Positions 487 to 37,898 of a stretch of DNA of 64,000 nucleotides are shown piece after piece; the first letter of the stretch is position 1, and the number at the start of each line of letters is the position of its first letter. The stretch is from Pseudaestuariivita rosea (GTDB taxonomy: Bacteria; Pseudomonadota; Alphaproteobacteria; Rhodobacterales; Rhodobacteraceae): NCBI RefSeq assembly GCF_017592335.1, contig NZ_JACNMP010000003.1:124001-188000 (forward strand), read 5' to 3'. Below the pieces are notes generated by a model. The model saw nothing but the letters and a program-made list of their open reading frames with translations. It searched no databases and was not told the origin of the DNA. The translations under genes were made by a program, and so were the position numbers.

Positions 487-1443
487 ATGTGCGACTGGGG
501 CACACTGCCCGACGGTCGCACGGCCAAGCTGATCACCCTGTCCAACGACCGCCTGCGGGTGAACGTCCTGAGCTTCGGTGCCGCCATTCAAAGCGTGCAC
601 CTCGACGATATCCCCCACAGCCTGACCCCCGGTTTCGACCATCTTGCGCCTTACCAGACCGGCAAGGGTGCAAACGGCTGCATCGTCGGCCCTGTCGCCA
701 ACCGTATCGGCGGCGCGCAGGCCATGATCGACGGCCAGCTAACCCATTTCGACGCCAACGAAGCGGGCCGCACCACCCGCCACAGCGGCAGCGCCGGGAC
801 ACACCTGCAGCCATGGCGCCCGACCATGGTCGCCAAAAACTATGCCGAACTGCAACTGCCCCTGCCCGATGGTCAGGGCGGCTTTCCCGGCAATCGCACC
901 CTGATCGCCGCATTCATCCTGACTGAGGCGACCCTGTCCTTGCGCCTAAGCGCCACGACGGACCGCACGACGCTGATCAATCTGGCCAATCACAGCTATT
1001 GGAACCTGGGCGGCGCGCCGACCTATGCGGGCCACAGGTTACAGATCAACGCCGATCACTATCTGCCCACGCACGACAACCTGCCCACCGGCGAAATTGC
1101 CCCGGTCGCAGGTAAGCCCTTTGATTTTCGCACGCCACGCGACCTGACCCCCGGCACAGACGCTGTGCTGGATCACAACTTCTGCCTGTCCAACACCCGC
1201 CGCCCCGTCACCGATATCGCCACCCTGACCGGCCCATCAGGCCTAAGCATGACAATGGCCACAACCGAACCCGGCCTTCAGGTCTATGACGGCGCGAATT
1301 TTCCGGGTGCCCCTTATGCGGGTTTGGCGCTTGAGGCCCAAAGCTGGCCCGACGCCCCAAACCACCCGAATTTTCCCAGCATCCTGCTGACCCCCGATGA
1401 CATCTATACCCAGGAAACGCGGTGGAGCTTTCGGCAATTGTGA
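487..1443 (+). CDS. galM: Aldose 1-epimerase (galactose mutarotase)
   Basis: A 318-residue cytosolic mutarotase that interconverts alpha and beta anomers of galactose or glucose. The frame is open upstream from 430, but the ATG at 487 is preferred because the homology begins there and it directly follows the upstream stop codon. Family landmarks are the first histidine in TTRHSG (His99), NHSYWNLGG with the catalytic-type His169, and the catalytic-type glutamate in ALEAQSWPDAPNHP (Glu283). The tail NHPNFPS is also typical of GalM. It sits directly behind a GH42 beta-galactosidase, which supplies beta-galactose. A large non-coding gap with a MITE-like element follows. Confidence 0.92.
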   Translation: MCDWGTLPDGRTAKLITLSNDRLRVNVLSFGAAIQSVHLDDIPHSLTPGFDHLAPYQTGKGANGCIVGPVANRIGGAQAMIDGQLTHFDANEAGRTTRHSGSAGTHLQPWRPTMVAKNYAELQLPLPDGQGGFPGNRTLIAAFILTEATLSLRLSATTDRTTLINLANHSYWNLGGAPTYAGHRLQINADHYLPTHDNLPTGEIAPVAGKPFDFRTPRDLTPGTDAVLDHNFCLSNTRRPVTDIATLTGPSGLSMTMATTEPGLQVYDGANFPGAPYAGLALEAQSWPDAPNHPNFPSILLTPDDIYTQETRWSFRQL

Positions 1444-1932
1444 ACACGCAAAACTTTGCAAAACTCTGGCCCACAAGTTTGCAAAGTTTCTCAATCCTGC
1501 GCCGTACGGTTGGGTTAAAATGTCATGAACGACGGATTTAGAGCATCGTCCTTAAAATCTCAAATGTGTTTGATGAGAGCTGAGGGCAGCGACCGGCCCG
1601 AGGGTGGGTGCGAGATAAGCGCCCGCCCTGGGGGGCGGGTCGGGCGCTGCCCGGTGGTACCCACCGGGCGACGAGGGCGGATAAAGCGTTGCGGATTTTT
1701 AGGACAATGCTCTAATAGTTAACACCGCCCGTTCGTTAACCATGCCTGACCGCATCGCCCTTATTGACGCCACTTACAGACGCGCGGGAATCGTACAAAC
1801 CCTGCGTACGAATTGTACGAAACGCGTTGTCGGCCCCCTCTGAAAAGCCCGAAAATGTGCAAATTGCACATCTATTTTCGCCGTAAAATCCAACCAAACG
1901 GAGCGTTACCCTTTGCGACGTTGCGTCGCTTT
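1444..1932. other. 489-bp non-coding gap between convergent genes
   Basis: No convincing gene lies between galM and the sulfotransferase-like gene, which converge here. The left part holds a MITE-like element (1538-1715). The right part holds several palindromes: CGTAC-N5-GTACG at 1805-1819 and an odd palindrome with ATGTGCAA arms at 1855-1871. A 66-codon minus-strand frame (1736-1936) overlaps the sulfotransferase stop codon by four bases, but it has no recognisable composition or domain and runs through the palindromes, so it is not annotated as a gene. Confidence 0.6.
1538..1715. repeat. MITE-like element with about 22-bp terminal inverted repeats
   Basis: The left end (1538-1560) begins TTAGAGCATCGTCC and the right end (about 1692-1715) is its near-perfect reverse complement, beginning TTAGAGCATTGTCC on the minus strand; the ends differ at only a few positions. 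The interior has no transposase and is very GC-rich, with a perfect hairpin at 1649-1669 (GCCCGGTGG arms, 3-base loop) and a second G+C palindrome at about 1618-1647. This is the layout of a non-autonomous miniature element. A target-site duplication cannot be fixed; TA or TAA would fit. Confidence 0.6.
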
Positions 1933-8181: not shown

Positions 8182-8375
8182 TGGAAACGATTCTTCTAGC
8201 CATAGGGCTGGTATTGGTCGTCGAGGGGCTGGTCTATGCACTGGCCCCTTCGCTTATAGAAGACCTGTTGCAGGCCCTGCGCAACCTTTCAATTGAACAA
8301 CGTCGCATGATTGGAATTGCTTGCCTTGCAACCGGAATATGTTTTGTCTGGATTGCCAAACTGCTTGGGGCCTGA
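8181..8375 (+). CDS. DUF2065 family small membrane protein
   Basis: A 64-residue hydrophobic protein with two membrane segments (about residues 3-22 and 44-61) joined by a short polar loop. The start ILLAIGLVLVVEGLVYAL and the ending CFVWIAKLL match the DUF2065 family, which is very often encoded directly after hflC in proteobacteria. The function is unknown; the conserved position suggests a role with HflKC or FtsH. It overlaps hflC by one base and is separated from the degP-like gene by about 150 bases that hold a promoter-like sequence. Confidence 0.82.
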   Translation: METILLAIGLVLVVEGLVYALAPSLIEDLLQALRNLSIEQRRMIGIACLATGICFVWIAKLLGA

Positions 8376-8443
8376 ATTCATTCAATATAATTGTGGTTAA
8401 TGATCAATTCCGTCTCACACTGGCGTGACGCGGACTTTCAACG

Positions 8444-8473
8444 CTTGGCGTTATGGCAAAAGCACCCTACTTT
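8444..8473 (+). promoter_or_regulatory. RpoH-like heat-shock promoter ahead of degP
   Basis: CTTGGC (8444-8449) and CCTAC-TTT (8466-8473) are spaced by 16 bases and resemble the alphaproteobacterial sigma-32 pattern (CTTG, then CCTAT). The position suits the TTG start at 8524 and the periplasmic chaperone-protease it would drive. Found by eye; a chance match is possible. Confidence 0.38.
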
Positions 8474-8523
8474 GTTAGACAAGACCGCAGGTCACGTAGA
8501 TTGAATGACTAAGGAGTTGAAGT

Positions 8524-9972
8524 TTGAAACCCAAGGCAATCGCACTTATAAAAACACGCACGATGCCTCAGATGCTGTTTGCGTTGATCCTTGGCTTTGC
8601 CTTTTTGCTGGCACAAGCCATGTTCGCAAACGCTCGGGGCGCACCGGAAAGCTTTGCTGATCTGGCCGATCAGATCAGTCCGGCTGTTGTGAATATCACG
8701 ACATCTACGACGGTTGCAGGGCGCACTGGCCCGCAAGGACTGGTGCCCGAAGGATCACCGTTTGAAGAATTTTTCCGCAACCTGCCCGCCCCCGATGGCG
8801 CACCACGCCGGTCATCGGCATTGGGATCGGGCTTTGTGATTTCCGAAGACGGCTTCATCGTGACGAACAACCACGTCATCGAAGGCGCTGACGAAATCCT
8901 GGTCGAATTCTTCACAGGCGGGGAACTGCCCGCGACCGTAATTGGCACGGATCGGAATACAGACATCGCCCTGCTGAAAGTCGAAGCAGACGGACCACTG
9001 CCATTCGTTCCATTTGGTGATAGCGATGCAATGCGTGTTGGTGATTGGGTCATGGCCATGGGTAACCCGCTGGGCCAGGGCTTTTCTGTATCAGCCGGTA
9101 TCGTCTCACAACGTGGGCGGGCGCTGTCAGGCGCTTATGACGACTATATCCAGACCGACGCTGCGATCAACCGCGGCAACTCGGGCGGTCCACTGTTCAA
9201 CATGGACGGTCAGGTCATTGGCGTGAACACCGCTATCCTTTCGCCAAACGGCGGATCGATTGGCATCGGTTTTGCGATGTCGGCGAATGTGGTGACCAGC
9301 GTTGTCGAGCAACTGCAGGAATTCGGTGAAACCCGCCGCGGCTGGTTGGGTGTCCGCATTCAGGACGTGACCCCCGACGTGGCCGAGGCAATGGGTCTTG
9401 AAGAAGCCGCAGGCGCGCTTATAACAGATGTTCCCGCTGGCCCCGCCGAAGACGCCGGAATGTTGGCCGGGGATGTCATTCTTTCGTTTGACGGCGCAGA
9501 TGTGTCTGACACCCGCGAATTGGTGCGTCGCGTTGGCAATACGGCCGTTGGTAAAAGCGTTCGTGTTGTTGTGTTCCGCGAAGGACAAACGCAAACGCTA
9601 TTGGTGACGCTCGGCCGCCGCGAAACGGCCGAAGGTGCCATTCCGGCCGCCGCTGTGCCCGAGGAAGAAGTGACCGAGCAGAATATGCTGGGCCTTACCC
9701 TTTCGCCGATCACACAAGCCTTGCGCGAAGAACTGCAGTTACAGGCAGGTATTGAGGGCCTGGTTATTACCGATGTCGATGGTGCCTCGGAAGCCTATGA
9801 AAAGGGCCTGCGCGCAGGTGATGTGATCACCGAAGCAGGCCAACAGGCCGTTGCCAGCATCGCTGATCTTGAAACCCAGATAGAAGAGGCCAAAGAAGCG
9901 GGTCGTAAATCGCTTTTGCTGCTAATTCGGCGTGCGGGTGAACCGCGTTTTGTTGCGATTTCGATAGAATAG
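8524..9972 (+). CDS. Periplasmic serine protease, Do/DegP family
   Basis: A 482-residue trypsin-like protease and chaperone of the cell envelope. An N-terminal signal sequence (hydrophobic residues about 18-36, cleavage near ANA-RGA) is followed by a protease domain with the triad His117 (NNHVIEG), Asp147 (NTDIALLK) and Ser220 (RGNSGGP), and two PDZ domains (about 270-365 and 385-480). The start is a TTG at 8524: AAGGAG ends seven bases before it, while the next ATG (8563) lacks such a site. It resembles DegP, DegQ or MucD; the sequence does not separate these. Its place after hflKC-DUF2065 fits a membrane and periplasm quality-control block. Confidence 0.93.
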   Translation: MKPKAIALIKTRTMPQMLFALILGFAFLLAQAMFANARGAPESFADLADQISPAVVNITTSTTVAGRTGPQGLVPEGSPFEEFFRNLPAPDGAPRRSSALGSGFVISEDGFIVTNNHVIEGADEILVEFFTGGELPATVIGTDRNTDIALLKVEADGPLPFVPFGDSDAMRVGDWVMAMGNPLGQGFSVSAGIVSQRGRALSGAYDDYIQTDAAINRGNSGGPLFNMDGQVIGVNTAILSPNGGSIGIGFAMSANVVTSVVEQLQEFGETRRGWLGVRIQDVTPDVAEAMGLEEAAGALITDVPAGPAEDAGMLAGDVILSFDGADVSDTRELVRRVGNTAVGKSVRVVVFREGQTQTLLVTLGRRETAEGAIPAAAVPEEEVTEQNMLGLTLSPITQALREELQLQAGIEGLVITDVDGASEAYEKGLRAGDVITEAGQQAVASIADLETQIEEAKEAGRKSLLLLIRRAGEPRFVAISIE

Positions 9973-10002
9973 CGCTCTCAACCAGTCTGAACACGGACGA
10001 AG

Positions 10003-10029
10003 CCGGGTCACAAGGCCCGGTTTCTTTTT
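10003..10029 (+). terminator. Rho-independent terminator after degP
   Basis: CCGGGT and GCCCGG pair across a six-base loop (10003-10020) and are followed by a T-rich run. It lies 30 bases after the protease stop codon and before the separately started ppk2. Confidence 0.7.
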
Positions 10030-10114
10030 GTGTAAGTCCCCGTCTTTGCGACAAGTCAAAGTAATGGGTGTCATTTTCTGTTATGGTCCCGTGATGCACC
10101 CGAAGGAGACGAAA

Positions 10115-11041
10115 ATGACGATCGTGAATGCAAAAAAGGGCAACGGTACACTGCCAAAACCCGTTGAGGTCCAGCCCGCGAAGCCAACCATTGACGCAGT
10201 TCACGAAACCTTCGGCGATGGTATCTATCCCTATGATCAAAAATTGTCCCGTCGCAGCTATGAAGCTCAGAAAGCCAAGCTGCAGGCCGAGCTTTTGAAA
10301 GTTCAGCTTTGGGCACAGGAAACCGGTCAGAAATTCGTTCTTCTATTTGAAGGTCGTGATGCCGCGGGTAAGGGCGGTACGATCAAACGGTTTACCGAAC
10401 ACCTGAACCCCCGCGCTGCCCGTGTCGTGGCCTTGAACAAGCCGACAGAAGAAGAACAAGGACAGTGGTATTTTCAGCGTTATGTCAATCATTTGCCCAC
10501 CCGGGGTGAAATCGTTCTGTATGATCGGTCATGGTATAACCGTGCGGGTGTGGAACGGGTCATGGGCTTTTGCCAACCGCAGGAATATCTGGAATTCATG
10601 CGTCAGACCCCGGAATTCGAACGCATGCTGGTCAGATCGGGTATCCGGCTTTACAAATACTGGTTCTCGGTCACTCGGAACGAACAGCGCGCCCGGTTTG
10701 AAAGCCGCGAAACCGATCCACTGAAGCGGTGGAAACTTAGCCCTATTGACAAGGCCAGCCTGAACAAGTGGTCCGACTACACCGAAGCGAAAGAAGCGAT
10801 GTTCTTCTATACCGACACCGCCGACGCACCCTGGACTGTGATCAAATCCAACGACAAGAAACGGGCCCGCCTGAACTGCATGCAGCATTTCCTGAACAGT
10901 CTGGATTACCCTGACAAGGACCGCAAAATCGTGCGCGGGGCCGACCCTTTGATTGTCGGACGTGCAGATCAGGTCATTCACAAATCGGATCATATTCTGG
11001 GCAAATCTCTTCATCCTGCCGATCGCAAAAGCACGTCATAA
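10115..11041 (+). CDS. ppk2: Polyphosphate kinase 2
   Basis: A 308-residue PPK2-family kinase that transfers phosphate between polyphosphate and nucleoside diphosphates. It has the Walker A-like loop GRDAAGKGG (80-88), the lid or Walker B motif DRSWYNR (137-143), and the conserved KYWFSVTRNEQ and PLKRWKLSP segments. Length and single-domain layout fit class I PPK2; nucleotide preference cannot be read directly. The frame is open from 10028, but the ATG at 10115 has AAGGAG six bases upstream and is chosen. Strong hairpin terminators flank the gene on both sides, so it is transcribed alone. Confidence 0.94.
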   Translation: MTIVNAKKGNGTLPKPVEVQPAKPTIDAVHETFGDGIYPYDQKLSRRSYEAQKAKLQAELLKVQLWAQETGQKFVLLFEGRDAAGKGGTIKRFTEHLNPRAARVVALNKPTEEEQGQWYFQRYVNHLPTRGEIVLYDRSWYNRAGVERVMGFCQPQEYLEFMRQTPEFERMLVRSGIRLYKYWFSVTRNEQRARFESRETDPLKRWKLSPIDKASLNKWSDYTEAKEAMFFYTDTADAPWTVIKSNDKKRARLNCMQHFLNSLDYPDKDRKIVRGADPLIVGRADQVIHKSDHILGKSLHPADRKSTS

Positions 11042-11055
11042 AATCTGCGTCAGAC

Positions 11056-11090
11056 CGCCAGCGTCTTGAAAAATGCGCTGGCGTGTTTTC
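11056..11090 (+). terminator. Rho-independent terminator after ppk2
   Basis: A perfect 8-bp stem, CGCCAGCG with CGCTGGCG, a 12-base loop and a following TGTTTT, starting 15 bases after the ppk2 stop codon. Confidence 0.78.
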
Positions 11091-11104
11091 CCAAGCTTGG
11101 CTAG

Positions 11105-11460
<356 letters not shown>

Positions 11461-11461
<1 letters not shown>

Positions 11462-12174
11462 TGTGGCGATACCTGGGTCTGCTGGTTTTATGCGCGGGCT
11501 GCGCTGTGGCCGACGTGAAAGAGGCACGGTTCACGGATCCGACAACCCGGTATGGCCACGCCATTCTGGGTGACGATATCGAATATGGTACGCTTGAGAT
11601 TGATGTGGCTCAGACCGGTACAGACGCCGTGTTGCGCCATGAAACGCGCGTTCATAAGCTGCCCTTGGATCATGTCTTCGAAGATATCACACCGCGGCTT
11701 TGGGATGTCACTGGTGACGGTAAGCCAGAAGTTGTCGTCATAGAAACGGATGTCCGTCTGGGTGCACAACTTGCCATATATGACGATCGTCGCAAAATCG
11801 CCGAAACGCCCCATATCGGTCGAACAAATCGCTGGCTTGCGCCGATTGGGGCGGCTGATCTGGATGGTGACGGATATATCGAAATTGCATATATCGACCG
11901 CCCCCATCTGGCAAAAACACTGCGGGTTTGGCGGTTTAAAGATCGCGAACTTGAACCTGTTGCTGATCTGGCAGGACTGACAAACCATCGCATCGGCGAA
12001 CGCGACATCGCAGGCGGCATCCGAGATTGTGGTCAGGGGCCTGAGATGATCACGGCTTCAGCAGACTGGACCGCAGTTGTAGCGACCCGATTTACAAACG
12101 GGAAACTTGTCAGCAGCCCTATTGCACCGCACCAGAACCGTGCCGATTTTGCCAAAGCGCTAAGGTGTGAATAG
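11461..12174 (+). CDS. Secreted protein with FG-GAP/VCBS-like repeats
   Basis: A 237-residue exported protein of unknown function. The first 17 residues form a signal sequence; cleavage after AVA is likely, although the cysteines in LCAGC could also make it a lipoprotein with an imperfect lipobox. Two calcium-binding-like turns, DVTGDG (82-87) and DLDGDG (133-138), sit in repeated beta segments typical of FG-GAP or VCBS folds. It may form a partial propeller. It overlaps the ferredoxin gene by one base, but a shared function is not obvious. Confidence 0.7.
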
Positions 12175-12317
12175 AAATCTCAAGTCTAAGCTCGCCCTTT
12201 ATTACAGCCAGATCACGGAATGGCGGGCAGAATAACACCTCTGTGTAAAATATGGTTCGAAGATGACCGGCGTCCCATCTGACGATAAACAGAATGCCAG
12301 CAGCTTCGGAGAGACCA

Positions 12318-12776
12318 ATGCCCATCACCCGCCGCACCATGTTGCTTTTTGCAGCAACGACACCCGTCTTGACCACCTTCGCGACCGTCGCCCGCGCCGC
12401 AACACCAACCATCTATGCCGAGGATGGCGTGGCCGTTGATGGCACCGACGTCGTGGCCTACTTCACCGAAGGCCAGCCCGTTGCGGGCAATCCTGACCTG
12501 ACCCACGATTGGATGGGTGCAACCTGGCGTTTTTCGACCGAAGAAAACCGCGCGGCCTTTATCGAAAACCCTGAAAGCTTTGCCCCGCAATATGGCGGAT
12601 ACTGCGCTTATGCGGTCAGTGAAGGCTATACGGCGTCGACCGTACCCGAGGCCTGGCGCATTGTTGATGACAAGCTGTATCTGAACTTTTCACGCCGCGT
12701 GCAACGCCGGTGGGAACGTGACATCCCCGGCCGCATCGCAAGCGCTGATGCAAACTGGCCCGCGGTGCTGAACTAG
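12318..12776 (+). CDS. YHS domain-containing secreted protein
   Basis: A 152-residue protein with an N-terminal export signal that begins with a twin-arginine-like TRRTML stretch and ends near ARA. It is followed by a YHS domain: DGVAVDGTDVVAYF, then DWMGATWRFST and PQYGGYCAYAVSEG. YHS domains are small putative metal-binding modules; no enzymatic role is implied. The start at 12318 is chosen because GGAGAG precedes it; an in-frame ATG at 12294 lacks one. The last four bases overlap the convergent pheT stop. Confidence 0.82.
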   Translation: MPITRRTMLLFAATTPVLTTFATVARAATPTIYAEDGVAVDGTDVVAYFTEGQPVAGNPDLTHDWMGATWRFSTEENRAAFIENPESFAPQYGGYCAYAVSEGYTASTVPEAWRIVDDKLYLNFSRRVQRRWERDIPGRIASADANWPAVLN

Positions 12777-15169
12777 CCGCGCAGCGTACCGCCGGTTGCC
12801 TTGGTCACCTTTTCGACGATCTTGGCGCTGACAGCTTCGATATCTTCGTCCTTCAACGTCTTATCGCGCGGCTGCAGACGAACGGTAATGGCAAGGGATT
12901 TCTTGCCTTCGCCCAAAGCACCGCCAATGAATTCGTCAAAGACGCGCACATCGTCGATCAGGCCTTTGTCGGCCCCCGCTGCCGCATTGACAAGCGTCAG
13001 TGCCTCAACATCGGCATTAACGACAAAGGCAAAGTCGCGCTCAACCGCCTGCAGGTCTGTTATCTCAAGCGCGGGACGGGTGGCCGACTTTGATCGCGGT
13101 AAGGGCACCTCGCCCGGCCAGATCGTAAACGCCATCGCGGGACCTTTGACATCCATTGCGGAAAGAACCTTGGGGTGCAGCTCGCCAAAAATGCCCAACA
13201 CCTTCTTTGGCCCCAGACAAATCATGCCGTGCCGCCCCGGATGCCACCATTCCTGCGCCCCGCGCAAAATCTGCACTTTGGCGGGCGCACCAATTGCACT
13301 TAGAACCGCCTCGGCGTCGGCCTTGACATCATAAACATCAACGGCGCGCGCACTGCCGTGCACGTCTTTGGGGCCGGTGCTGCCAATCAGCAGACCTGAA
13401 ACCAGCAGATGCTGTTCATCCGGCTCGCCCCCGTGGAAGGCCGGGCCGACCTCAAACAGAGCCAGATCCATGAAACCACGCGCCTGGTTGCGCGCCGCGG
13501 CCTGCAGTAAGCCCGGCAGCAGTGCGGGGCGCATATGACTCATTTCAGAGCTGATTGGGTTCGCCAGCATCGTTGCATCATCGCCACCACTGAACAGCTC
13601 GGCCGAGGCTTTGTCGATAAAGCTATAGGTGACGCATTCGTTATATCCCAAAGCCGCACAGGTCCGCCGCGCCGCCTGTTCGCGCCGCTGCATGGGCGTC
13701 AGTACGGGTTTCGGCACGCCCACCTGTGCGCGGGGCAGTGGCCGCCCCCGCAGCTTGGTCAGGGATGCAATCCGCGCGACCTCTTCGACCAAGTCCGCTT
13801 CGCCCATCACATCGGGTCGCCAGGTGGGCACATGGGCCATATCACCGTCAAGCCGGAACCCAAGCCGTTCAAGTGTGGCGCGCTGGTCTTCAGCGGGAAT
13901 ATCCATACCCACCAGCGACTGCACACGATCCGTATCCAGCTTATATGCGCGTGACACATCCGGGATTTCACCCGCGATAACCACGTCCGAGGCTTCGCCC
14001 CCACATAGATCAAGGATCATCCGTGTGGCATGTTCCAGCCCGTGGGGCGTCCAGGCCGGATCGATACCGCGCTCAAACCGGTAGCGCGCATCACTGTTGA
14101 TCTTCAGCGCACGACCCGTCAGCGCCGTCCGCACCGGATCAAAGTAGGCGGCTTCAAGAAAGACATTTACGGTTTCTTCAGTGCAACCTGTGGGCAAACC
14201 ACCCATGACACCTGCGATACTTTCAATACCGCTATCGTCTGAGATCAGCGTCATGTCGGGCTGGAATGTATACTCTTTCTCATCCAGACCAACCAGCGTT
14301 TCGCCCCCTTTTGCACGGTGCACACGCAGGTTACCCTGCACCTTGTCAGCATCAAAAACATGCAAAGGGCGATTGCGATCATAGGTAAAGAAATTCGTAA
14401 TATCGACCAGCGCACTGATGGGGCGCAAACCGATGGCACGCAGAATATCCTGCAGCCACTGCGGGCTGGGGCCATTTTTCACACCGCGGATGACACGGCC
14501 ATAAAATACTGGGCAAGCATCGCGGGTGTCATCATCAATCGTCACCGCGATCGGGCAAGGGAATTGACCCTGAACCGGATCAAGATCACGCGGCTTCATA
14601 GTCCCCAATCCACGCGCGGCCAGGTCTAGTGCGATCCCCCGCACCCCAAGCGCATCGGGGCGGTTGGGCGTAATCGCAATCTCGATCACCGGGTCAACCT
14701 TGGCCGGTTCATTCGCGGCCAGCCAATCGGCAAAGCTTTCGCCAACTTCTCCACTGGGCAGTTCGATGATGCCGTCGTGTTCATCCGACAGCTCCATCTC
14801 ACGCTCACTGGCCATCATACCAAAGCTTTCAATGCCGCGGATCTTGCCAACACCAATGGTCGTATCAATGCCTGGCACATAGACACCGGGCTTGGCCACA
14901 ACCACCGTGATCCCCTGCCGTGCGTTCGGCGCACCGCAGATGATCTGCTTGACGCCCTCATCCGTTTCCACCTGACACACCCGCAGCCGATCCGCATCGG
15001 GGTGCTTTTCGGCCTGCAACACCTTACCGATGGTGAAATCCTTCAGCTTTTCAGCGGGGTTCGAAACCTCTTCAACCTCAAGACCAAGGTCGGTCAGCGC
15101 ATAAAGGATGTCGTCAAGCGAGGCTGAGGTTTCAAGATGATCCTTCAGCCAGGAAAGGGTGAATTTCAT
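12773..15169 (-). CDS. pheT: Phenylalanine--tRNA ligase beta subunit
   Basis: A 798-residue beta subunit of the heterotetrameric class II synthetase that charges tRNA-Phe. Domains in order: an N-terminal tRNA-binding OB fold (about 39-150), the B3/B4 editing domain (about 210-365), B5 (about 405-475), the catalytic-like core and the C-terminal FDX-ACB domain (about 705-798). Length is normal. It is not adjacent to pheS: six small genes on the same strand, including a toxin-antitoxin pair, lie between them, and 77 bases separate pheT from the toxin stop. pheT may therefore depend on read-through from pheS or on a separate promoter. The stop region overlaps the convergent YHS gene. Confidence 0.97.
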   Translation of the reverse strand: MKFTLSWLKDHLETSASLDDILYALTDLGLEVEEVSNPAEKLKDFTIGKVLQAEKHPDADRLRVCQVETDEGVKQIICGAPNARQGITVVVAKPGVYVPGIDTTIGVGKIRGIESFGMMASEREMELSDEHDGIIELPSGEVGESFADWLAANEPAKVDPVIEIAITPNRPDALGVRGIALDLAARGLGTMKPRDLDPVQGQFPCPIAVTIDDDTRDACPVFYGRVIRGVKNGPSPQWLQDILRAIGLRPISALVDITNFFTYDRNRPLHVFDADKVQGNLRVHRAKGGETLVGLDEKEYTFQPDMTLISDDSGIESIAGVMGGLPTGCTEETVNVFLEAAYFDPVRTALTGRALKINSDARYRFERGIDPAWTPHGLEHATRMILDLCGGEASDVVIAGEIPDVSRAYKLDTDRVQSLVGMDIPAEDQRATLERLGFRLDGDMAHVPTWRPDVMGEADLVEEVARIASLTKLRGRPLPRAQVGVPKPVLTPMQRREQAARRTCAALGYNECVTYSFIDKASAELFSGGDDATMLANPISSEMSHMRPALLPGLLQAAARNQARGFMDLALFEVGPAFHGGEPDEQHLLVSGLLIGSTGPKDVHGSARAVDVYDVKADAEAVLSAIGAPAKVQILRGAQEWWHPGRHGMICLGPKKVLGIFGELHPKVLSAMDVKGPAMAFTIWPGEVPLPRSKSATRPALEITDLQAVERDFAFVVNADVEALTLVNAAAGADKGLIDDVRVFDEFIGGALGEGKKSLAITVRLQPRDKTLKDEDIEAVSAKIVEKVTKATGGTLRG

Positions 15170-29820: not shown

Positions 29821-30593
29821 CAGCCACCTAGCGGATTGGCCAGATAGGCATTCAGACTTTGCACCCAGATTTGCAGCAGAAAGGGTGCGCTAAGCATCAA
29901 TAGTATCAGACCACCAGCGGTAATCGCGGGCGCGCCGACAAAGGCCACCATCAGCTGCGGCATGGCCCGATTGATCACGCCAAGCGCCAAATTATAGATA
30001 AGCGATGCGATAAAAAACGGTGCGGCCAAGCCAAAGGCCAGCGCAAAAGCGTGGGCAATCCGCTGTGTGCCCCAGGCCGTCAGAACACTGGCATCCGGAA
30101 ACTGTCCTGCTGGCATGATGTCATAGGACAATATGATCAACTCGGCCGCGCGAATGTGCAGACCCGTCATCACTGCAAGCGCAAGACCGCCGATGACCAG
30201 TACATGTCCCATGGCAGGCAACGGGTCGATTCCGGCGGCACCAAATATCTGCGAAAGAGACGTCGACTGGGCGGCGATCGTGCCCGCGATCTGTAAAGCC
30301 ATCACGAACAGACGGATGGATAGTCCAATCGCCAGGCCTGCGATGACCTCGGTCATGACGAAGACGGGCAGTTTCGTGAACGGCTCGTTCTGAACATCGA
30401 TGCCCGACAGGGCGGCTGGCGCGACGATCAAGGTAAACGCCAGTGTCAAACCCAGTTTGACTCGCGCTGGAACGGTTTGTTCACCAAATGCAGGCAAAAC
30501 GGCCATGATGGCACCGACGCGCAGAAAAACGATAAAGCCCCCCCAAAGCGCAGTCTGGGCGAAAACCATGATCTGATCTGCGGCAATATTCAT
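29820..30593 (-). CDS. fliR: Flagellar export gate protein FliR
   Basis: A 257-residue inner membrane protein with several hydrophobic segments, part of the export gate with FliP and FliQ. ALQIAGTIAAQSTSLSQIFG is the conserved core segment. Its ATG overlaps the flhA stop (four bases) and its stop overlaps flhB (one base), so flhA-fliR-flhB are translated as a coupled block. Confidence 0.94.
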   Translation of the reverse strand: MNIAADQIMVFAQTALWGGFIVFLRVGAIMAVLPAFGEQTVPARVKLGLTLAFTLIVAPAALSGIDVQNEPFTKLPVFVMTEVIAGLAIGLSIRLFVMALQIAGTIAAQSTSLSQIFGAAGIDPLPAMGHVLVIGGLALAVMTGLHIRAAELIILSYDIMPAGQFPDASVLTAWGTQRIAHAFALAFGLAAPFFIASLIYNLALGVINRAMPQLMVAFVGAPAITAGGLILLMLSAPFLLQIWVQSLNAYLANPLGG

Positions 30594-32680
30594 GCAGGAA
30601 CCATGCCCACCAAAGCTGGCTGTGCGTCGATCCCGATTTCCTCGAATGAAAGAACGGGGTTCGCAAGGCCCTTGGCAATCATGACGGTCCGCAAAAAACG
30701 CCGCCGCCGCATAGATGTTACAACTGCGGGATAAACACCCTTTTCACCTGCTTTTGTAATACGCTCTGCCAGGGATGTCGCAAGGCGGTTGAACAAATCA
30801 GGCGGCAAGGCGATATCCGTTTGACCCCGATCCCCCTCAATCTGGTAGCTGATAAATTTCTCCTCCCATTCAGGGGCTAATTGTACCAACGGGATTGAGC
30901 CATCGTCACGTTTCAGATCTGCGATCAACTGGAAGCCCAACCGCTGCCGAACGTGTTCACATATGCCTTCGGGCGTCGCCATTGCACCGCGTGCTTCCGA
31001 TATAGCTTCCAGAATCAAAGGCAGGTTCCTTATTGAAACACGCTCTTCCAGCAGCAACCTCAGGACCGACAAAAGCAGGTCCACGGGCACTTTGTCTGGC
31101 ACCAACTCGTCAAGCATCTTTCGGTTTGCATCAGCCCGCATTGGATCTGACAAATTCACCATTTCATCCAACAAACGTCGTAAGGCGCGAAGCGACAAAA
31201 GACGCGGGAAATTGCGTTTGATGACCTCAAGCAGGTGTGTCGCCAGAACTTCGGTCGGGGTTACGACTGTCAGGCCTTCAAACGCGGCATCTTCTTCGTG
31301 TTCGGGCGATATCCATCTGGCAGGTGCGCCATAGACAGGTTCATTCACATCCTGACCAGGCGGCAAAATGTTAGAATCTGCCGCTGTCAGGGCCAATATC
31401 CGTTCGGGTTGCAGGCAATCGCGCGCCTGTTCGACCCCTTGTATCCGAATGACATAGGTATTTGGCGGCAGGGACGCGTCATCGGTCAGGCGCATCTCAG
31501 GCAGGATCAACCCATAAACAGTCGCCACATGGGTGCGCATATTCGAGATACGCGCATCCAGACCCGTTCCTGGATCCAGCACCATCGGAATCAAGTCCGA
31601 GGAAAATTCGACATGGATGTCATCAAGGTCCAGGATATCGCCCAAAGGCTTTTCCTGCTCGACCGGTTCGACTTTTTCAGTCTCTTGCCTGGCTGCGCGC
31701 GCCTCGGCCTGCTGTTTTCGATAAACATAGAATGCCGCGCTTAGCAAAGCGATTGCACCGGCAACAAAGGGTATGAAAGGCAGCCCGGGTACTAATGCAA
31801 ACAGAAACATCAAAGCCCCAACGGTTGCCAGAGCAGGTGGATATTTCCCCAGTTGGCTGAACATCGCCAAGTCAGCCGCACCTTTGGCGCCACCGCGGGC
31901 CAGCAGCAACGCAGATGCGATCGAGATTATGACTGCCGGGATCTGCGACACCAAACCGTCACCGACCGTTAATATCGCATAGGTTTCAAAAGCAAGCCCA
32001 ATTGGCATGCCATGCAATGCAATGCCAATGATCAGCCCCATGACAAGGTTCAGAAGGGTAATCAACAGCCCCGCAATGGCGTCGCCTTTTACAAATTTGG
32101 ACGCACCATCAAGCGATCCAAAAAATGTTGTTTCGGCCTGTTCGGTTTCACGTCGCTGCTTGGCCTGCGTATGATCAATCGCACCTGCCGACATATCGCT
32201 ATCGATCGCAAGCTGCTTGCCCGGCATGCCATCCAGCGCGAAACGCGCGCCAACCTCGGCCATACGAGCCGCACCTTTAGTAATTACGATGAAGTTGACA
32301 ATGAGCAGAACGCAGAAAACGACCAGCCCCAACAACACACTACCGCCCATGACGAACATCGCGAAGCCCTCGATGACATCACCTGCGGCATCGGTTCCAG
32401 TATGACCCTGTCCAATAATAAGTTTGGTCGACGACACATTCAGGGACAATCGCAGCATAAGCGATGCCAGCAGGATCGTCGGAAAGGCTGAAAAATCAAG
32501 CGGCCGTTCGATGAAAAGCGTAATCGTGAAAATCAGAATGGCCAAGGCAAAGGACGCCGCCAAGCCGATATCCAGCACCCAGGCCGGGACTGGCAAAATC
32601 ATCATGACAATGACTGCCATCAACGCCAGCGCCAGCAGAATGGTTGGTTGAAATATTGTTGTCAGGCTCAATTTCGGCAT
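30590..32680 (-). CDS. flhA: Flagellar export protein FlhA
   Basis: A 696-residue export apparatus component with eight predicted membrane segments in its first half (to about 330) and a large cytosolic domain that docks chaperone-substrate complexes. The FHIPEP-family signature ARFALDGMPGKQLAID sits at residues 145-160. The frame is open to 32761, but the ATG at 32680 gives the usual start MPKLSLTTIFQPT. The ribosome binding site is weak. It follows the transglycosylase gene by 16 bases. Confidence 0.95.
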   Translation of the reverse strand: MPKLSLTTIFQPTILLALALMAVIVMMILPVPAWVLDIGLAASFALAILIFTITLFIERPLDFSAFPTILLASLMLRLSLNVSSTKLIIGQGHTGTDAAGDVIEGFAMFVMGGSVLLGLVVFCVLLIVNFIVITKGAARMAEVGARFALDGMPGKQLAIDSDMSAGAIDHTQAKQRRETEQAETTFFGSLDGASKFVKGDAIAGLLITLLNLVMGLIIGIALHGMPIGLAFETYAILTVGDGLVSQIPAVIISIASALLLARGGAKGAADLAMFSQLGKYPPALATVGALMFLFALVPGLPFIPFVAGAIALLSAAFYVYRKQQAEARAARQETEKVEPVEQEKPLGDILDLDDIHVEFSSDLIPMVLDPGTGLDARISNMRTHVATVYGLILPEMRLTDDASLPPNTYVIRIQGVEQARDCLQPERILALTAADSNILPPGQDVNEPVYGAPARWISPEHEEDAAFEGLTVVTPTEVLATHLLEVIKRNFPRLLSLRALRRLLDEMVNLSDPMRADANRKMLDELVPDKVPVDLLLSVLRLLLEERVSIRNLPLILEAISEARGAMATPEGICEHVRQRLGFQLIADLKRDDGSIPLVQLAPEWEEKFISYQIEGDRGQTDIALPPDLFNRLATSLAERITKAGEKGVYPAVVTSMRRRRFLRTVMIAKGLANPVLSFEEIGIDAQPALVGMVPA

Positions 32681-32696
32681 AAGGTTACAGTCGTTG

Positions 32697-33443
32697 TCAC
32701 TGAATAAACGGCGCGGTGGCCGTGGAAGAGGGCGATGTCGGTACCAAAGATCCCAACGCAAACGATTGACGTGGCAAATTTATCAGTGGCTTAGGTCCAT
32801 CTGTATCCGCCAGATCATGTTTCTGTGTCGGCGCCGCAACTGCATTTGACAAAACTCTGGCGTGATAGACATCAAAGCGCTTGCGGTAGATTTCGGCAAA
32901 GCGCGGCGTTCTTGAATGATAGGCACCAGCCGCCTTGCTCCAGTCTCCGAATTCCTCATAAAGATCTTTTAGGAAACCCGCTGCATATGTTGCATTTTTC
33001 CGCGGGTCGAACATTTCCTCAACTGATGAAAATGCGTGTCCGTGCCATTTGTAGTTGATCTGGAAACAACCGATATCAAAACTTCTTGCACCTTCCTGAT
33101 AATACCTTAAGGCATTTGAAATGGCGTCTTTCTTGCTATCGAACCAGACGCCTTTGCCGCCAACATTTATGGTCCAAGGCCAGGTCTCTAACCGTCTATT
33201 TTTCTGATGACCGGTTTCAGTCAATGAAATCGCAGCAAGAACCGTGTAAGGTACACCCGTCGCCTTTGATGCCTCATGTGCGGCGATCAAACAGGTCTCG
33301 TCTGATCTTGCATGCGTTTTGCCTGCTATTATGCCGATGCAGATCATCGAAAATAAAAGTAAACGCATGCGGATAAGACAGAGGCCCGCAAAGCAGCTCA
33401 AACCCTGCACATAGTCAAAGCCGGTCCGACCGTAGTGATTCAT
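32697..33443 (-). CDS. Flagellar-cluster lytic transglycosylase (SLT domain)
   Basis: A 248-residue exported muramidase-type enzyme. Glu76 in SLTETG is the expected catalytic acid, and DIGCFQINYKWH and NATYAAGFLKDLYEE follow as in SLT family 1. The proline-rich tail after about 190 has no domain. Start uncertain: the ATG at 33443 has GAAGG eight bases upstream, whereas the ATG at 33368 would give a shorter and more typical signal peptide (MRLLLFSM). In Rhodobacter sphaeroides a dedicated transglycosylase (SltF) opens the cell wall for the rod, and this gene's position between the 667-residue protein and flhA suggests the same role. Confidence 0.85.
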   Translation of the reverse strand: MNHYGRTGFDYVQGLSCFAGLCLIRMRLLLFSMICIGIIAGKTHARSDETCLIAAHEASKATGVPYTVLAAISLTETGHQKNRRLETWPWTINVGGKGVWFDSKKDAISNALRYYQEGARSFDIGCFQINYKWHGHAFSSVEEMFDPRKNATYAAGFLKDLYEEFGDWSKAAGAYHSRTPRFAEIYRKRFDVYHARVLSNAVAAPTQKHDLADTDGPKPLINLPRQSFALGSLVPTSPSSTATAPFIQ

Positions 33444-33504: not shown

Positions 33505-33520
33505 AATTAAGGCCTTAATT
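33505..33520. repeat. 16-bp perfect palindrome at a stop codon
   Basis: AATTAAGGCCTTAATT overlaps the stop codon of the 667-residue gene, 60-75 bases before the transglycosylase start. It may be an operator for a promoter within the operon, or chance. Confidence 0.4.
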
Positions 33521-35518
33521 CACCGAACGGTCGCCCGATAAAATTGCATCCAGTGACTGCCGAACACGATTGCTCTGCTCAAGCAGGTTTCGATTTCTCA
33601 GCAGTACCTTGTCATTTTGGGCCGACTGAATACTGGTTGAGGCCGCTTGGTTCGCTTCGATCGACGCATTTGCTTCAGACTGGCGATTTGATACCTGATC
33701 ATCGGATACTTGCGCGATCATCTGTGTCACTTCATCTTCTCGCGTTTGGGTCGCGGCGACGACACCATCTACTTTGTCGGAAGTCGGGTTTCCGGTCCAT
33801 AGCTTCGATTGTTCCTCGAAACCCAGATCTTGTAGTTTTGACGAAATCAACAAACGTGTTTGATCATTCAACTGCCTCGGCATCAGTTCATTCGGCGGTG
33901 AGAACGCCAGCTTGAGGAAATCCGTCTGACTGCTGTTGTCCATCAAATCCTGCATAATCAGCGATCTAAAAGATATGTCCGCATCCTTAATCTGGCTCAG
34001 ATTTTCAACGGCGGCTTGATAGTCGCCCGAAACAGCAGCCGCACGCGCACTAAGCGAAATTAGGAAACGTTCCTTTGGTGTATCCTTATGCTCGAACGCA
34101 AACGCAGCCAATTGCGTACGATCAGCAGTTGAAATCACCTCGTCGCGTGCCAGTTTGCTTTCGATTAAAGTAGAAAACGCATCAACAGCACTGATAGTAT
34201 TTTCGCTGGTTAAGCCCTGTAAAGAAGCCTCAGCTGTTTCAATTCGACCTTCTTTCAGATCCAGTTTTGCTTCTGCCAGCGACAATGCAGACGTTTCAGC
34301 ACCTACCGCGCGCGTCGCAGAGATCAAAACAAGGTTCGCACTGCCCAAATCCCCGCCATACATCATATTTTCCGATAATCGCGGACCAAGGACCTGCCTT
34401 AGATGTTTTGGTAACGCGTTAAATTCGCGAAGCACAGCAGCCGTATTTGCATTTTTTATATTATCAGGCGCCTCTAAAATCGCCCAAAGTGCGGACGCAT
34501 TTTCGCAAAGATACATATTCTGAAAGAAGCCATTTTGTGGGCTTTCACCATATTCAAACAGATACGCCATCGCCAACAAAGCTTCGCGATCATCTGAAAT
34601 CAGCCCCACATTCTCAATCAGATGAATGGCTTCAGCACCGAAGCCGAAATACAGGTAATGACGGATCAGACCCTTCAAACCTTGTTGATTTGTCTGATCG
34701 AATTCCTCAACCAGTTTCGTCCGCCACGTTGCAACGCCTGCTGTAAACTGACCTGACTGACCCCAGGATGCGATGTTAATTTGGTCATTGGAAAGACATT
34801 GCTGGTCGTCGTCCAAAACCGGATTAACTCTGTCGTTTTCTTCCGAGCTAGAGCTGAGACGTACATTTGGCTCCGCGCTTTGAATTTCCTCGACAATAAC
34901 GACTGCCTCATCGATTTGTTTTTCTGTAGACTGTGGATCCGTTTGCAAAATCCCATCCGCGAAAACCTCACTGAGTTGACGCAGCAATTGGGCCTGAGCA
35001 TCAGACACACGCTGGCGATCATATTCAAGCGTCTCGATGATTTTGATCGTATCCGGTGCAGGAGAAGCCTTGTGGTCTGCGGTTTCATCAAACACTATGG
35101 GAAAAATGTCCGGTTTTGGTTGGTGCTGCGCCGGTCGAACGACAACTCTTTTTGCTCCGTCCGACGTTCGGTCAATGACGTCCAAAACGATACTGCGGCC
35201 ACGGTGCTCAAAAGCTTCTACTGTGCAGTCACAATTCACTTTCAACGACAGCACACCATCACGGCTATCAGAAACCGATATTATTCGTTTTCGTGGGATT
35301 TTTCGAAAAACGCTGGACGTATCGAAACGAATGTCTTGGTTAAGTATTTCCAGATCATAAGTCGCGTCGCGCTCAACAAAACTCCAGTCCGGCAAGTCAT
35401 CAAAATCCAGAACAAGTCTGGAAAAGCCTGTATGTTCGCCAGAACGGACCAAGATTGTCTCAGCGTGGGCAACTGATGCGGTCATTATCGAGAATAGGAT
35501 CAAGAAAAGACGCAACAT
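33515..35518 (-). CDS. Periplasmic AMIN-like/helical-repeat protein next to motA
   Basis: A 667-residue exported protein (signal peptide to about residue 19, AHA-ETI). Residues 20-115 look like an AMIN-type beta domain (GFSRLVLDF, DVIDR), residues 240-560 are alpha-helical with TPR-like repeats, and the last 70 residues are rich in Ser, Asn, Gln and Ala. No named family is recognised. It is coupled to motA (one-base overlap), so a role in positioning or supporting the stator in the periplasm is a fair inference, comparable to MotC in rhizobia but unrelated by eye. MotB itself is not in the window. Confidence 0.7.
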   Translation of the reverse strand: MLRLFLILFSIMTASVAHAETILVRSGEHTGFSRLVLDFDDLPDWSFVERDATYDLEILNQDIRFDTSSVFRKIPRKRIISVSDSRDGVLSLKVNCDCTVEAFEHRGRSIVLDVIDRTSDGAKRVVVRPAQHQPKPDIFPIVFDETADHKASPAPDTIKIIETLEYDRQRVSDAQAQLLRQLSEVFADGILQTDPQSTEKQIDEAVVIVEEIQSAEPNVRLSSSSEENDRVNPVLDDDQQCLSNDQINIASWGQSGQFTAGVATWRTKLVEEFDQTNQQGLKGLIRHYLYFGFGAEAIHLIENVGLISDDREALLAMAYLFEYGESPQNGFFQNMYLCENASALWAILEAPDNIKNANTAAVLREFNALPKHLRQVLGPRLSENMMYGGDLGSANLVLISATRAVGAETSALSLAEAKLDLKEGRIETAEASLQGLTSENTISAVDAFSTLIESKLARDEVISTADRTQLAAFAFEHKDTPKERFLISLSARAAAVSGDYQAAVENLSQIKDADISFRSLIMQDLMDNSSQTDFLKLAFSPPNELMPRQLNDQTRLLISSKLQDLGFEEQSKLWTGNPTSDKVDGVVAATQTREDEVTQMIAQVSDDQVSNRQSEANASIEANQAASTSIQSAQNDKVLLRNRNLLEQSNRVRQSLDAILSGDRSVN

Positions 35519-36384
35519 CAGGCCGCCTGCTTGACGTTTTTCAATGCTTCTTCCAGATCAGCAAAGCTGGGCCTGATGTGCGCTGGTGTATTCTGGCGCC
35601 CCACCTCAATACAGATATTGACCGAATGCTTGTGAAGGTTGGCGACCAGTACCTCACGTATCAGCTGATAGAAATGGTTATCCTCTTCTGTCAGTGTTTT
35701 GACTTTACCGGCAAAAGGACCCACGAAACCATAGGCTAGGAAAACGCCAAGAAACGTACCGACCAAAGCGCCACCGATCATTTTGCCAAGAATTTCAGGG
35801 GGTTGATCAATAGACCCCATAGTTTTGATAACACCCAGAACAGCGGCCACAATCCCCAAAGCAGGCAAACCATCGGCAATCGTCTGAAGCGCGTGGCTGG
35901 AATGCATGGCGTGATGGAAATTGGCTTCCATCCGCTTTTCCAGCACCTCTTCCACCTGATGTGGATCGTCGTAGTTCATTGACGCGGAACGAAGCGTGTC
36001 ACAGATCAACTCAATCGCTTCATGATCTGCCAAAATCTTTTCATACTTCGAAAAAATCGCTGACTCTTTAGGATTCTCGATGTGCTCTTCTAACCCGACT
36101 GGATTTTGACGGGCCAATCGAACCAGTTCAAATAAAAGGCAAAGCAAATCTCGATAATCGTCAGGCTTCCACTTAGGGCCCTTGAAAACCTTGGCCACAT
36201 CCTTGGCCGTGTGTTTGATCCCGCCCATGTCATTACTGATGACAAAAGCACCAATAGCCGCGCCCCCGATCATCATCATTTCGAACGGCAAAGCCTTGAT
36301 GATGATGCCAAACTTGCCGCCAGCGGCCATATAGCCACCAAAAACCATGATAAAAACAATGGCGATACCAACAATTCCGATCAT
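35518..36384 (-). CDS. motA: Flagellar motor stator protein MotA
   Basis: A 288-residue inner membrane proton-channel subunit with four membrane segments and a cytosolic loop. The torque-loop residues Arg92 and Glu99 (LARQNPVGLEE) and the channel prolines Pro174 (DGLPALGI) and Pro223 match the positions known from E. coli MotA. It overlaps the downstream 667-residue gene by one base. No motB follows, unlike in most bacteria, so MotB must be encoded elsewhere. Confidence 0.96.
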   Translation of the reverse strand: MIGIVGIAIVFIMVFGGYMAAGGKFGIIIKALPFEMMMIGGAAIGAFVISNDMGGIKHTAKDVAKVFKGPKWKPDDYRDLLCLLFELVRLARQNPVGLEEHIENPKESAIFSKYEKILADHEAIELICDTLRSASMNYDDPHQVEEVLEKRMEANFHHAMHSSHALQTIADGLPALGIVAAVLGVIKTMGSIDQPPEILGKMIGGALVGTFLGVFLAYGFVGPFAGKVKTLTEEDNHFYQLIREVLVANLHKHSVNICIEVGRQNTPAHIRPSFADLEEALKNVKQAA

Positions 36385-36457: not shown

Positions 36458-37039
36458 CTATTCCTTGGGTAAATCAGCATTTCGACCGGCCAGTAGAACG
36501 CTGATTGTATAGGCAGTCTTCGGTTGTAAGCCCGCCATGACCTCGGCCGCAGCGTCGGGACGCATCCGCGCCAGAAAACCGGCGGCAAATTCTGGTGCCA
36601 TCTCCTCAAAAAGGGCAGCGGCATCCTTGGGTTTCATATTCTCATAAACCGCCGTCAGCCGTGATACATCGTCTTCCGCGGCACTCTCGACCCGCGCCAA
36701 GGTCGCGGCGAGTTCCTCTTCTGCTGTTACAAGGGCATCGTAGTTTTCGCGGATTGCGACCTCGGCGTGGGCCAGTTCCTGCATCCGTTTCTCAAGTTGC
36801 GCTTCGCGTTCTTCAAGACGTGACTCGCGGGCTTGAATGGCAGCCAAAACAGGTTCCAGATCAGCCGAACACGTTTGGGTTTCGGCAATCACCTCGGCTT
36901 CGGAAAACGACTCAAACTCTCGTGCGACCGCTTCACCAACCCCACCCGACAGCCGAAATATGCCCGACGCCGCTAATAGTCCCGCAATCAGAAACAACGT
37001 CCCTTTACCACGGCGGGTCTTCTTTTGTTTTCTGGCCAT
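36458..37039 (-). CDS. motE: MotE-like flagellar motility protein
   Basis: A 193-residue protein with an N-terminal membrane segment (about 13-30), a long coiled coil (about 60-130) and a C-terminal MgtE-N-like helical domain with YENMKPKDAAALFEEM and LARMRPDAAAEVMAGL. This layout is that of MotE, the periplasmic chaperone for MotC in rhizobia. If the same holds here, the 667-residue protein encoded two genes downstream is its probable client. The 73-base gap to motA may carry a promoter. It overlaps the DUF6468-like gene by one base. Confidence 0.8.
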   Translation of the reverse strand: MARKQKKTRRGKGTLFLIAGLLAASGIFRLSGGVGEAVAREFESFSEAEVIAETQTCSADLEPVLAAIQARESRLEEREAQLEKRMQELAHAEVAIRENYDALVTAEEELAATLARVESAAEDDVSRLTAVYENMKPKDAAALFEEMAPEFAAGFLARMRPDAAAEVMAGLQPKTAYTISVLLAGRNADLPKE

Positions 37040-37404
37040 TAATGCGCCCCCCGTTCACGATGGCGCATAAAGACAGGTTCATCTTTGGGCTTAGCGGGGG
37101 GTGCGGATGACGCTTGCGCCTCGGGCAAATCATGCATCGATGCAACCAGCAATTCCAAACGTTTGGCAGCAGTTTCGGCACGTTCGGTCAATTCAGTCAG
37201 TGATCCAGCCGAATATTGCGCAGTTTTCTGGGCGTGCTGCAGCGTCTTTGTCATATCATCGACTTGCGCAGACAAGACAGCAACAGCGCCCCCCACACCT
37301 TTCTCTAGGTCAGTAAACCGACGCAACCGACGTGAAAGAATCATGCAATAAAACGCAGCGGCTAGCGCGCCTGCGACCAGTAGAATATCTGCAATCAGAC
37401 TCAT
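37039..37404 (-). CDS. DUF6468-like protein of the flagellar cluster
   Basis: A 121-residue protein with one N-terminal membrane segment (about 3-22), a helical stretch (35-92) and a disordered proline-rich tail. Small proteins of this shape recur between fliL and motE in alphaproteobacterial flagellar clusters; the function is unknown. Twelve bases after fliL. Confidence 0.68.
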   Translation of the reverse strand: MSLIADILLVAGALAAAFYCMILSRRLRRFTDLEKGVGGAVAVLSAQVDDMTKTLQHAQKTAQYSAGSLTELTERAETAAKRLELLVASMHDLPEAQASSAPPAKPKDEPVFMRHRERGAH

Positions 37405-37415
37405 TGAAGTGTTCC

Positions 37416-37898
37416 TTAGGTTAAGACGAATTCTATGATCAGCAGGTCTTTGACGTAGTCTTCGCCCACCACCATCTGCACACGACGCAACATTTGACCG
37501 CGCAGGCGAACCAACGCGCTTGGATCTTCGATTTCCGAAAGCTCGACGGCCCGCAGATAGCTGTTCAGAACATCGATCACGCGGGGCAAACGGGCTGCAA
37601 CATCTTCCTCATGCCCTGCCTGCACCTCAAGCTGAGCCTGAAAACGCAGATGTGTTTTATCAGCGCCGCGTCCAAGCGAGATTAAAAGTGGATCCATCGG
37701 AACAAAGGCTACCTTGGGTAACGCACTCGTTTCCTTGGATACCATCTGTTTTTCTTGCGGTGCAGCCCCTAGAATCATGCCTGATTGCACGGCAAAAAAG
37801 CCACCGCCGCCGCCCACAAGCGCCAAGACAAGCCCCATAATCAACGGTAATTTCGAAGATTTCTTCTTCGGTTCGGTATCTTCCTGTTCCTCAGCCAT
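37416..37898 (-). CDS. fliL: Flagellar basal-body-associated protein FliL
   Basis: A 160-residue protein with a short basic cytosolic tail, one membrane segment (about 19-42) and a periplasmic stomatin-like FliL domain ending VKDLLIIEFVLT. It forms a ring around the stator and supports motor function. It heads the minus-strand motor/export operon and is divergent from fliF across a CtrA-like box. Confidence 0.92.
   Translation of the reverse strand: MAEEQEDTEPKKKSSKLPLIMGLVLALVGGGGGFFAVQSGMILGAAPQEKQMVSKETSALPKVAFVPMDPLLISLGRGADKTHLRFQAQLEVQAGHEEDVAARLPRVIDVLNSYLRAVELSEIEDPSALVRLRGQMLRRVQMVVGEDYVKDLLIIEFVLT

Follow-up and report, generated by a model that had tools for sequence, protein, structure and literature searches.

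What is the protein encoded directly behind motA in the flagellar gene cluster of Pseudaestuariivita rosea (Rhodobacteraceae), and what might it contribute to the flagellar motor? The DNA analysed here, referred to as the window, is a stretch of 64,000 nucleotides (contig NZ_JACNMP010000003.1 of assembly GCF_017592335.1, positions 124,001 to 188,000). Its initial annotation, made from the sequence alone, viewed the protein as unrecognised, as specific to its lineage, and as a possible periplasmic partner of the stator that works with MotE in place of MotC. The evidence assembled below indicates that the reading frame is very probably MotK of the Rhodobacteraceae-type flagellar cluster, and it may act with MotE and MotB as a spoke that recruits or opens MotA/MotB. 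The protein is one that has already been named (in 2024; PMC10954123) and discussed in a 2026 review (PMC13023049), and the window copy is the local MotK of a widespread kind, so that the label 'unrecognised' has to be given up. The identification nevertheless gives a protein for which neither Pfam nor NCBIfam yields a domain above cut-off both a name and a role that can be put to the test.

The gene and its operon

The reading frame of 667 codons occupies positions 33515-35518 and runs on the minus strand, from 35518 to 33515, an orientation left unsaid by the initial annotation; read on the plus strand, the same interval is interrupted by many stops. Upstream of it on the same strand are motA (35518..36384; TIGR03818, 366 bits versus a cut-off of 303.8), motE (36458..37039; MgtE_N PF03448, E 8.7e-6, and 50% identity to the 185-aa MotE of the genome taken below as Cereibacter sphaeroides), a pflI-like gene (37039..37404; 53% identity over 109 aa to the corresponding stretch of locus L031, the name for this operon position being taken from PMC10954123) and fliL (37416..37898; PF03748, E 8.8e-12). 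The order in the window is fliL-pflI-motE-motA-motK, that of the C. sphaeroides fla2 operon, and the initial annotation had likewise placed the gene in an operon with motE. The junction between motA and motK is TGATG, in which the ATG of motK overlaps the stop codon of motA by the single base that had been noted, and such an overlap would keep the output of stator and scaffold in step. On the 3' side of motK, still on the minus strand, lie a gene for an SLT-domain transglycosylase (32697..33443; PF01464, E 5.2e-9), whose position is kept in many homologous loci, and then flhA (30590..32761; TIGR01398, 816.7 bits, over the cut-off), fliR and flhB.

Promoter-like sites (5 versus 4.1 expected) and terminator-like sites (9 versus 5.9 expected, sd 2.2) in the window were uninformative. 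A CtrA site has been reported upstream of fliL2 in C. sphaeroides (PMC10954123), and a CtrA-box pattern had no match in the window. The G+C content of motK (33515-35518) is 47.8%, lower than the 54.9% of the window. At E <= 0.001 the host genome has a single MotB-plug match, on a contig other than that of the motA-motK operon (locus L085, G000:C2:24500-27500, 867-1736, minus strand).

Domain architecture

An AlphaFold2 model of the window protein, built on 29 homologues, reached a mean pLDDT of 80.3 and a pTM of 0.58. The structure prediction proposed in the initial annotation returned the AMIN domain and a TPR-like solenoid, which are preceded by a predicted Sec-type signal peptide (residues 1-19; 35462..35518, minus strand, as are all segments that follow) with a cleavage site that was placed by eye at AHA-E. 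This is the strongest hydrophobic segment of the protein, as all later 19-residue stretches are less hydrophobic than the N-terminal one (1.22 vs 1.77). The AMIN-like beta domain comprises residues 20-116 (35171..35461) and is recognised from the model, from a match to PDB entry 4bin, and from conservation. It is followed by a linker (residues 117-240; 34799..35170) that is largely of low confidence apart from a better-predicted helix at 158-187, which bears the family consensus LLxQLSRAAxQGL. The TPR-like alpha solenoid, assigned from the model and from fold matches, spans residues 241-575 (33794..34798), mostly with pLDDT above 85, and agrees with the helical repeats that had been claimed. 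The C-terminal region (33518..33793) had been described as a low-complexity tail, a description that fits the poorly predicted stretch 577-605 but not the helix predicted at 606-660.

Neither Pfam nor NCBIfam names these domains above cut-off. The AMIN-like family PF24837 falls below its Pfam threshold (E 0.023, 15.2 bits versus a cut-off of 27), a Pfam ARM-repeat match is at chance level, and NCBIfam returned nothing for the window protein. In the model the AMIN domain is clear: residues 19-117 superimpose on the E. coli AmiC structure 4bin with Z 11.8 and an rmsd of 2.4 A over 98 residues, and on chain 3jc8_Qa of a type IVa pilus model with Z 11.8 and an rmsd of 2.9 over 99 residues. For the solenoid, a large number of TPR proteins match at Z 11-13, a result that is not specific. 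Searches of the PDB by sequence gave weak matches only for the window protein (E 0.27 and 0.43), coatomer epsilon (E 1.8e-4) and designed repeat proteins for the MotK profile (A2), and TPR proteins and, weakly, PilQ (E 0.0024) for a profile of the larger proteins discussed below (A3); a library of viral structures gave no match at E <= 0.001.

Among the observations that would speak against its reading, the initial annotation had listed a clear resemblance to some unrelated enzyme family, and no such match was found in Pfam, in NCBIfam or in the PDB sequence search; membership of an enzyme family was rejected on the lack of a catalytic-domain match in Pfam or NCBIfam. An AmiC-type amidase was likewise rejected, as the Amidase_3 catalytic domain is absent in Pfam and the remainder of the protein is predicted to be a helical solenoid.

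The 29 aligned homologues show no variation at H29, R34, R78, D113, C241, C338 and several further positions, and C241 and C338 could form a disulfide. These proteins span 652 to 909 aa, and the three shortest include the window protein and the MotK inferred to be that of C. sphaeroides. Most of the aligned relatives have a stretch near the C-terminus with TPR-like profile matches, which is missing from these two proteins.

Identity as MotK

The link to published work runs through a 652-aa protein at the corresponding position in one of the genomes surveyed (G051; loci L006 and L031), with which the window protein shares 28% identity over 586 aa (E 3e-61). This protein has a mass of 68.56 kDa and the MotE of the same genome has 185 aa and 19.17 kDa, versus 652 aa and 68.5 kDa for MotK and 185 aa and 19.2 kDa for MotE as published for C. 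sphaeroides (PMC10954123). Since both sizes agree, the genome was taken to be C. sphaeroides, although the mature mass after removal of 24 residues is slightly off (65.9 kDa versus a published 66.3 kDa; PMC10954123). When a collection of named genomes was queried with this MotK, one locus was returned, from Cereibacter johrii, with 91% identity. The same arrangement also occurs on plasmid pD4M1D of Paroceanicella profunda, where a gene annotated as 'hypothetical protein' overlaps motA by 4 bases.

According to Velez-Gonzalez et al. 2024 (PMC10954123), the fla2 cluster of C. sphaeroides contains the putative operon fliL2-pflI-motE-motA2-motK. For the N-terminal region of its MotK, the AmiC AMIN domain is reported there to be the best modelling template, and the protein also has a TPR-like helical part. 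The protein is described as periplasmic, as required for rotation and as dispensable for the filament, with motK mutants that are flagellated and paralysed. It binds MotE and, more weakly, MotB2, and a MotK-sfGFP fusion gives a focus at the flagellated pole, where it co-localises with the hook, provided that MotA2/MotB2 are present. The same report states that C. sphaeroides has no MotC homologue, and it already noted MotK-like proteins in Paracoccaceae and Roseobacteraceae (PMC10954123).

By sequence the window protein is clearly homologous to the MotK inferred to be that of C. sphaeroides, and it occupies the matching operon position. The need for rotation and the binding of MotE and MotB are known from the Fla2 homologue of C. 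sphaeroides and may extend to the window protein. The proposal of a periplasmic stator partner that acts with MotE in place of MotC gains support from the work on this homologue, as this is the role published for C. sphaeroides MotK (PMC10954123).

Distribution and synteny within the family

A first contig scan with the window protein as query found no relative. A survey of 120 genomes, each from a different genus of the window's family, returned a MotK homologue in 84 of them at E <= 0.001, and a profile of 29 sequences recovered the same 84. Homologues in 84 of 120 genera rule out a chance reading frame, and they also remove the notion of a lineage-specific protein; MotK-type scaffolds are common across this bacterial family, and a related larger protein is found in 150 of the 171 FlhA-bearing genomes of the class (see below). 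In the family, FlhA was matched in 100 of the 120 genomes at E <= 0.001, 90 of which pass the FlhA family's own cut-off. The co-occurrence check suggested by the initial annotation placed an FlhA match (E <= 0.001) in 84/84 MotK-positive genomes and MotE in 81/84, and MotK was missing from 20/20 genomes without an FlhA match. The host genome has a second FlhA-family reading frame (locus L084, G000:C1:58000-77000, 8299-10371; 535 bits, below the flagellar cut-off). A T3SS-type ATPase (PF18269) and a short protein of the YscJ/FliF family (252 aa) are encoded nearby, and this is probably a non-flagellar type III secretion locus.

The local gene order is also well kept. In 29 of 30 loci, the window's included, motA adjoins the MotK homologue, and the 30th locus stops at a contig edge; motE is present in 23/30, counted within short flanks only. 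Of 29 loci, 28 have a motK start that shares 1 or 4 bases with the motA stop, and in the remaining one motK begins 3 bases after that stop; the count is somewhat favoured because the start nearest to the motA stop was chosen.

MotK and MotE occur together in 81 of the 120 genomes, MotK by itself in 3, MotE by itself in 6, and neither in 30. One of the MotK-only genomes (G040) involves a contig edge, the others being G056 and G061. Among the MotE-only genomes, the locus lies at a contig end in two (G113 and G028), and in three (G006, G044 and G107) the genes are arranged differently, a weaker MotE standing beside flhB-, fliR- and flhA-like genes. Weaker MotE homologues with 33-37% identity were seen in some relatives (loci L078, L079, L080 and L083); in L078-L080 their neighbours are flhB-, fliR-, flhA- and SLT-like genes, and neither motA nor MotK was matched, and in L083 the matches are limited to MotE and a weak fliL. 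The sixth MotE-only genome (G023) is a genuine case of MotK absence between motA and flhA, and offers a natural setting for asking how the motor works without MotK. Its locus (L081, G023:C12:832000-851000, 8400-13408) reads fliL-pflI-motE-motA, about 700 bases, and then flhA, with no MotK. Overall, 16 of the 100 family genomes with an FlhA match lack MotK, and 10 of those 16 are also without MotE.

Large motE-linked proteins of other alphaproteobacteria

Proteins of other alphaproteobacterial families are matched by the MotK profile as well, mostly through the AMIN part and several times twice within one frame. Most of these frames have 950-1400 codons; some have about 400 codons and are probably AmiC-type amidases. 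Twenty loci of large proteins were collected, 16 as the best MotK-profile matches and 4 picked by hand. Their reading frames encode 978-1248 aa, with motE nearby in 18/20 loci, a count that is not from a random sample because the loci were chosen from MotK-profile matches, and with motA in 0/20. A large motE-linked type has been described for Caulobacter CC_2058 (PMC10954123, PMC11870540), and the Caulobacteraceae proteins are stated in PMC10954123 not to be similar to MotK by BLAST. In the model of one large protein, two beta domains of AMIN size and a further beta region are accompanied by a long solenoid; in Pfam the same protein falls slightly short of the cut-off for AMIN-like (E 1.1e-5) and passes it for TPR_2.

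The profile A3 was made from an alignment of the 20 large proteins and holds no member of the window's family. In a genome search it finds the window protein with E 2.2e-13, mainly through the AMIN region (45.7 bits for residues 12-157, and 3.9 bits for the solenoid). Aligned against each other by hhalign, the full MotK and large-protein alignments match with E 5.5e-34 over 413 columns, and the profile-profile comparison of solenoid with solenoid gives a probability of 99.0 and E 4.7e-18 over 336 columns. The unrelated TPR families HemY and BamD, represented by 25 sequences each from the window's bacterial family, served as controls. Against the MotK and the large-protein alignments, full or solenoid, their best probability was 18.6 and their best E 0.0013 in all 8/8 comparisons, and as these controls are far weaker, the solenoid link between MotK and the large proteins is not a general TPR effect.

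The A3 profile matches 162 of 289 genomes of the class at E <= 1e-10, its 20 source genomes included. With a threshold of E <= 1e-190, set to leave out type III secretion relatives, FlhA is found in 171 of the 289. Both are present in 150 genomes, A3 only in 12, FlhA only in 21 and neither in 106, kinship among the genomes being ignored in these counts. Fisher values computed for the co-occurrences likewise take no account of kinship and are not read here as probabilities. One of the 21 FlhA-only genomes (G075) belongs to the window's family and has a MotK that A3 missed at E <= 1e-10.

What is new here is the evidence, from sequence profiles with controls, that MotK and the large motE-linked proteins form one family. 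We lean towards the broader view that the motE-linked AMIN-TPR proteins are one family by descent, as opposed to repeated recruitment of TPR proteins, and that they serve as spokes joining a MotE E-ring to the stators in most flagellated alphaproteobacteria. Under this one-family view MotK, in the window as in C. sphaeroides, would represent a reduced version, from which beta domains and the last TPR helices have been lost. PflA and PflB are reported not to be conserved at the sequence level (2025 preprint, PMC11870540). A link between MotK and the large proteins would enable profile searches on the age of the E-ring-and-spoke motor.

Possible mechanism and alternative readings

The most likely mechanism is a spoke, drawn by analogy from the C. 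sphaeroides experiments and from the work on PflA and FlgY (PMC11870540, PMC12222027, PMC13023049). In this scheme the AMIN domain would hold on to peptidoglycan, while the solenoid would dock on the MotE ring, a candidate for the E-ring round the MS-ring, and on MotB. Together they would make up a spoke by which MotA/MotB stator units are recruited or opened, much as the PflA spokes do in Campylobacter. Peptidoglycan binding, the E-ring position and the geometry of the spoke are features that we infer; according to the 2026 review, no cryo-ET has been done on the motors of S. meliloti and C. sphaeroides (PMC13023049).

One could argue instead that MotK chiefly serves MotE as its chaperone or stabiliser, or that MotE does so for MotK, in which case the paralysis of the mutants would be indirect and MotK would not be a lasting part of the motor. 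The instability of C. sphaeroides MotE without MotK (PMC10954123) fits this idea, as does the fact that MotE of S. meliloti was first described as a chaperone of MotC (PMC10954123, PMC13023049). Against it stand the polar focus at the hook that depends on MotA2/MotB2 (PMC10954123) and the AMIN-plus-solenoid architecture, which is shared with motor spokes, and we regard this reading as improbable. A somewhat different view, and a still less probable one, would regard the window protein as a true MotC orthologue and not as a member of a separate MotK family. The review does argue that MotC and MotK are homologues that have diverged, each rich in TPRs and each a partner of MotE, but it also points to the extra N-terminal AMIN domain of MotK (PMC13023049), and C. 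sphaeroides is reported to be without a MotC homologue (PMC10954123).

The AMIN domain matches AmiC and the pilus chain 3jc8_Qa equally (Z 11.8 each), and with an SLT-domain gene on the 3' side of motK one may wonder whether the protein is an envelope protein of the peptidoglycan or the pilus (compare PilQ/PilF or AmiC) that resides in a flagellar operon and acts elsewhere, for example in wall remodelling together with the SLT transglycosylase. Such a role is opposed by an FlhA match in every one of the 84 MotK-positive genomes, by the conserved motA/motK junction, and by a C. sphaeroides motK mutant that is paralysed yet flagellated (PMC10954123), and we regard it as highly unlikely.

Comparison with known systems

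The closest counterpart is MotK of C. sphaeroides, which resembles the window protein in operon order, signal peptide, AMIN domain (about 23-120), helical solenoid, and disordered linker and tail. The two differ in length (667 aa in the window versus 652 aa), their identity is low (28%), and the linker of the window protein appears by eye to be less proline-rich. The large motE-linked proteins of other alphaproteobacteria share with MotK the AMIN region, the solenoid (by profile) and the linkage to motE; unlike MotK they are longer, they have extra beta domains in the modelled example, and motA was not found in their 20 loci.

MotC of S. meliloti, compared here by description only, is like MotK a periplasmic, TPR-rich partner of MotE, and it is needed for rotation (PMC10954123, PMC13023049). 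Unlike MotK it is encoded after motB, and the accounts of MotC drawn upon from these two papers mention no AMIN domain.

Finally, PflA of Campylobacter jejuni provides a structural parallel from a motor with spokes. The Foldseek match ranked first in the PDB is chain K of 9hmf, a periplasmic scaffold of the C. jejuni motor, both for the window model (E 1.5e-4, with a poor superposition of TM 0.14 and rmsd 43.9, and with other TPR proteins following closely) and for the large-protein model (E 6.1e-10); 9hmf is not among the 50 VIA-align matches listed for either model. From its length and fold, chain K appears to be PflA, for which the PDB searches by sequence with the window protein, A2 or A3 gave no match. 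PflA is described as a spoke with an N-terminal AMIN beta-sandwich, a flexible loop and a TPR superhelix (PMC12222027, PMC11870540). The AMIN beta-sandwich and the TPR superhelix are common to PflA and, in its predicted model, to the MotK of the window, and in Campylobacter PflA acts together with PflB.
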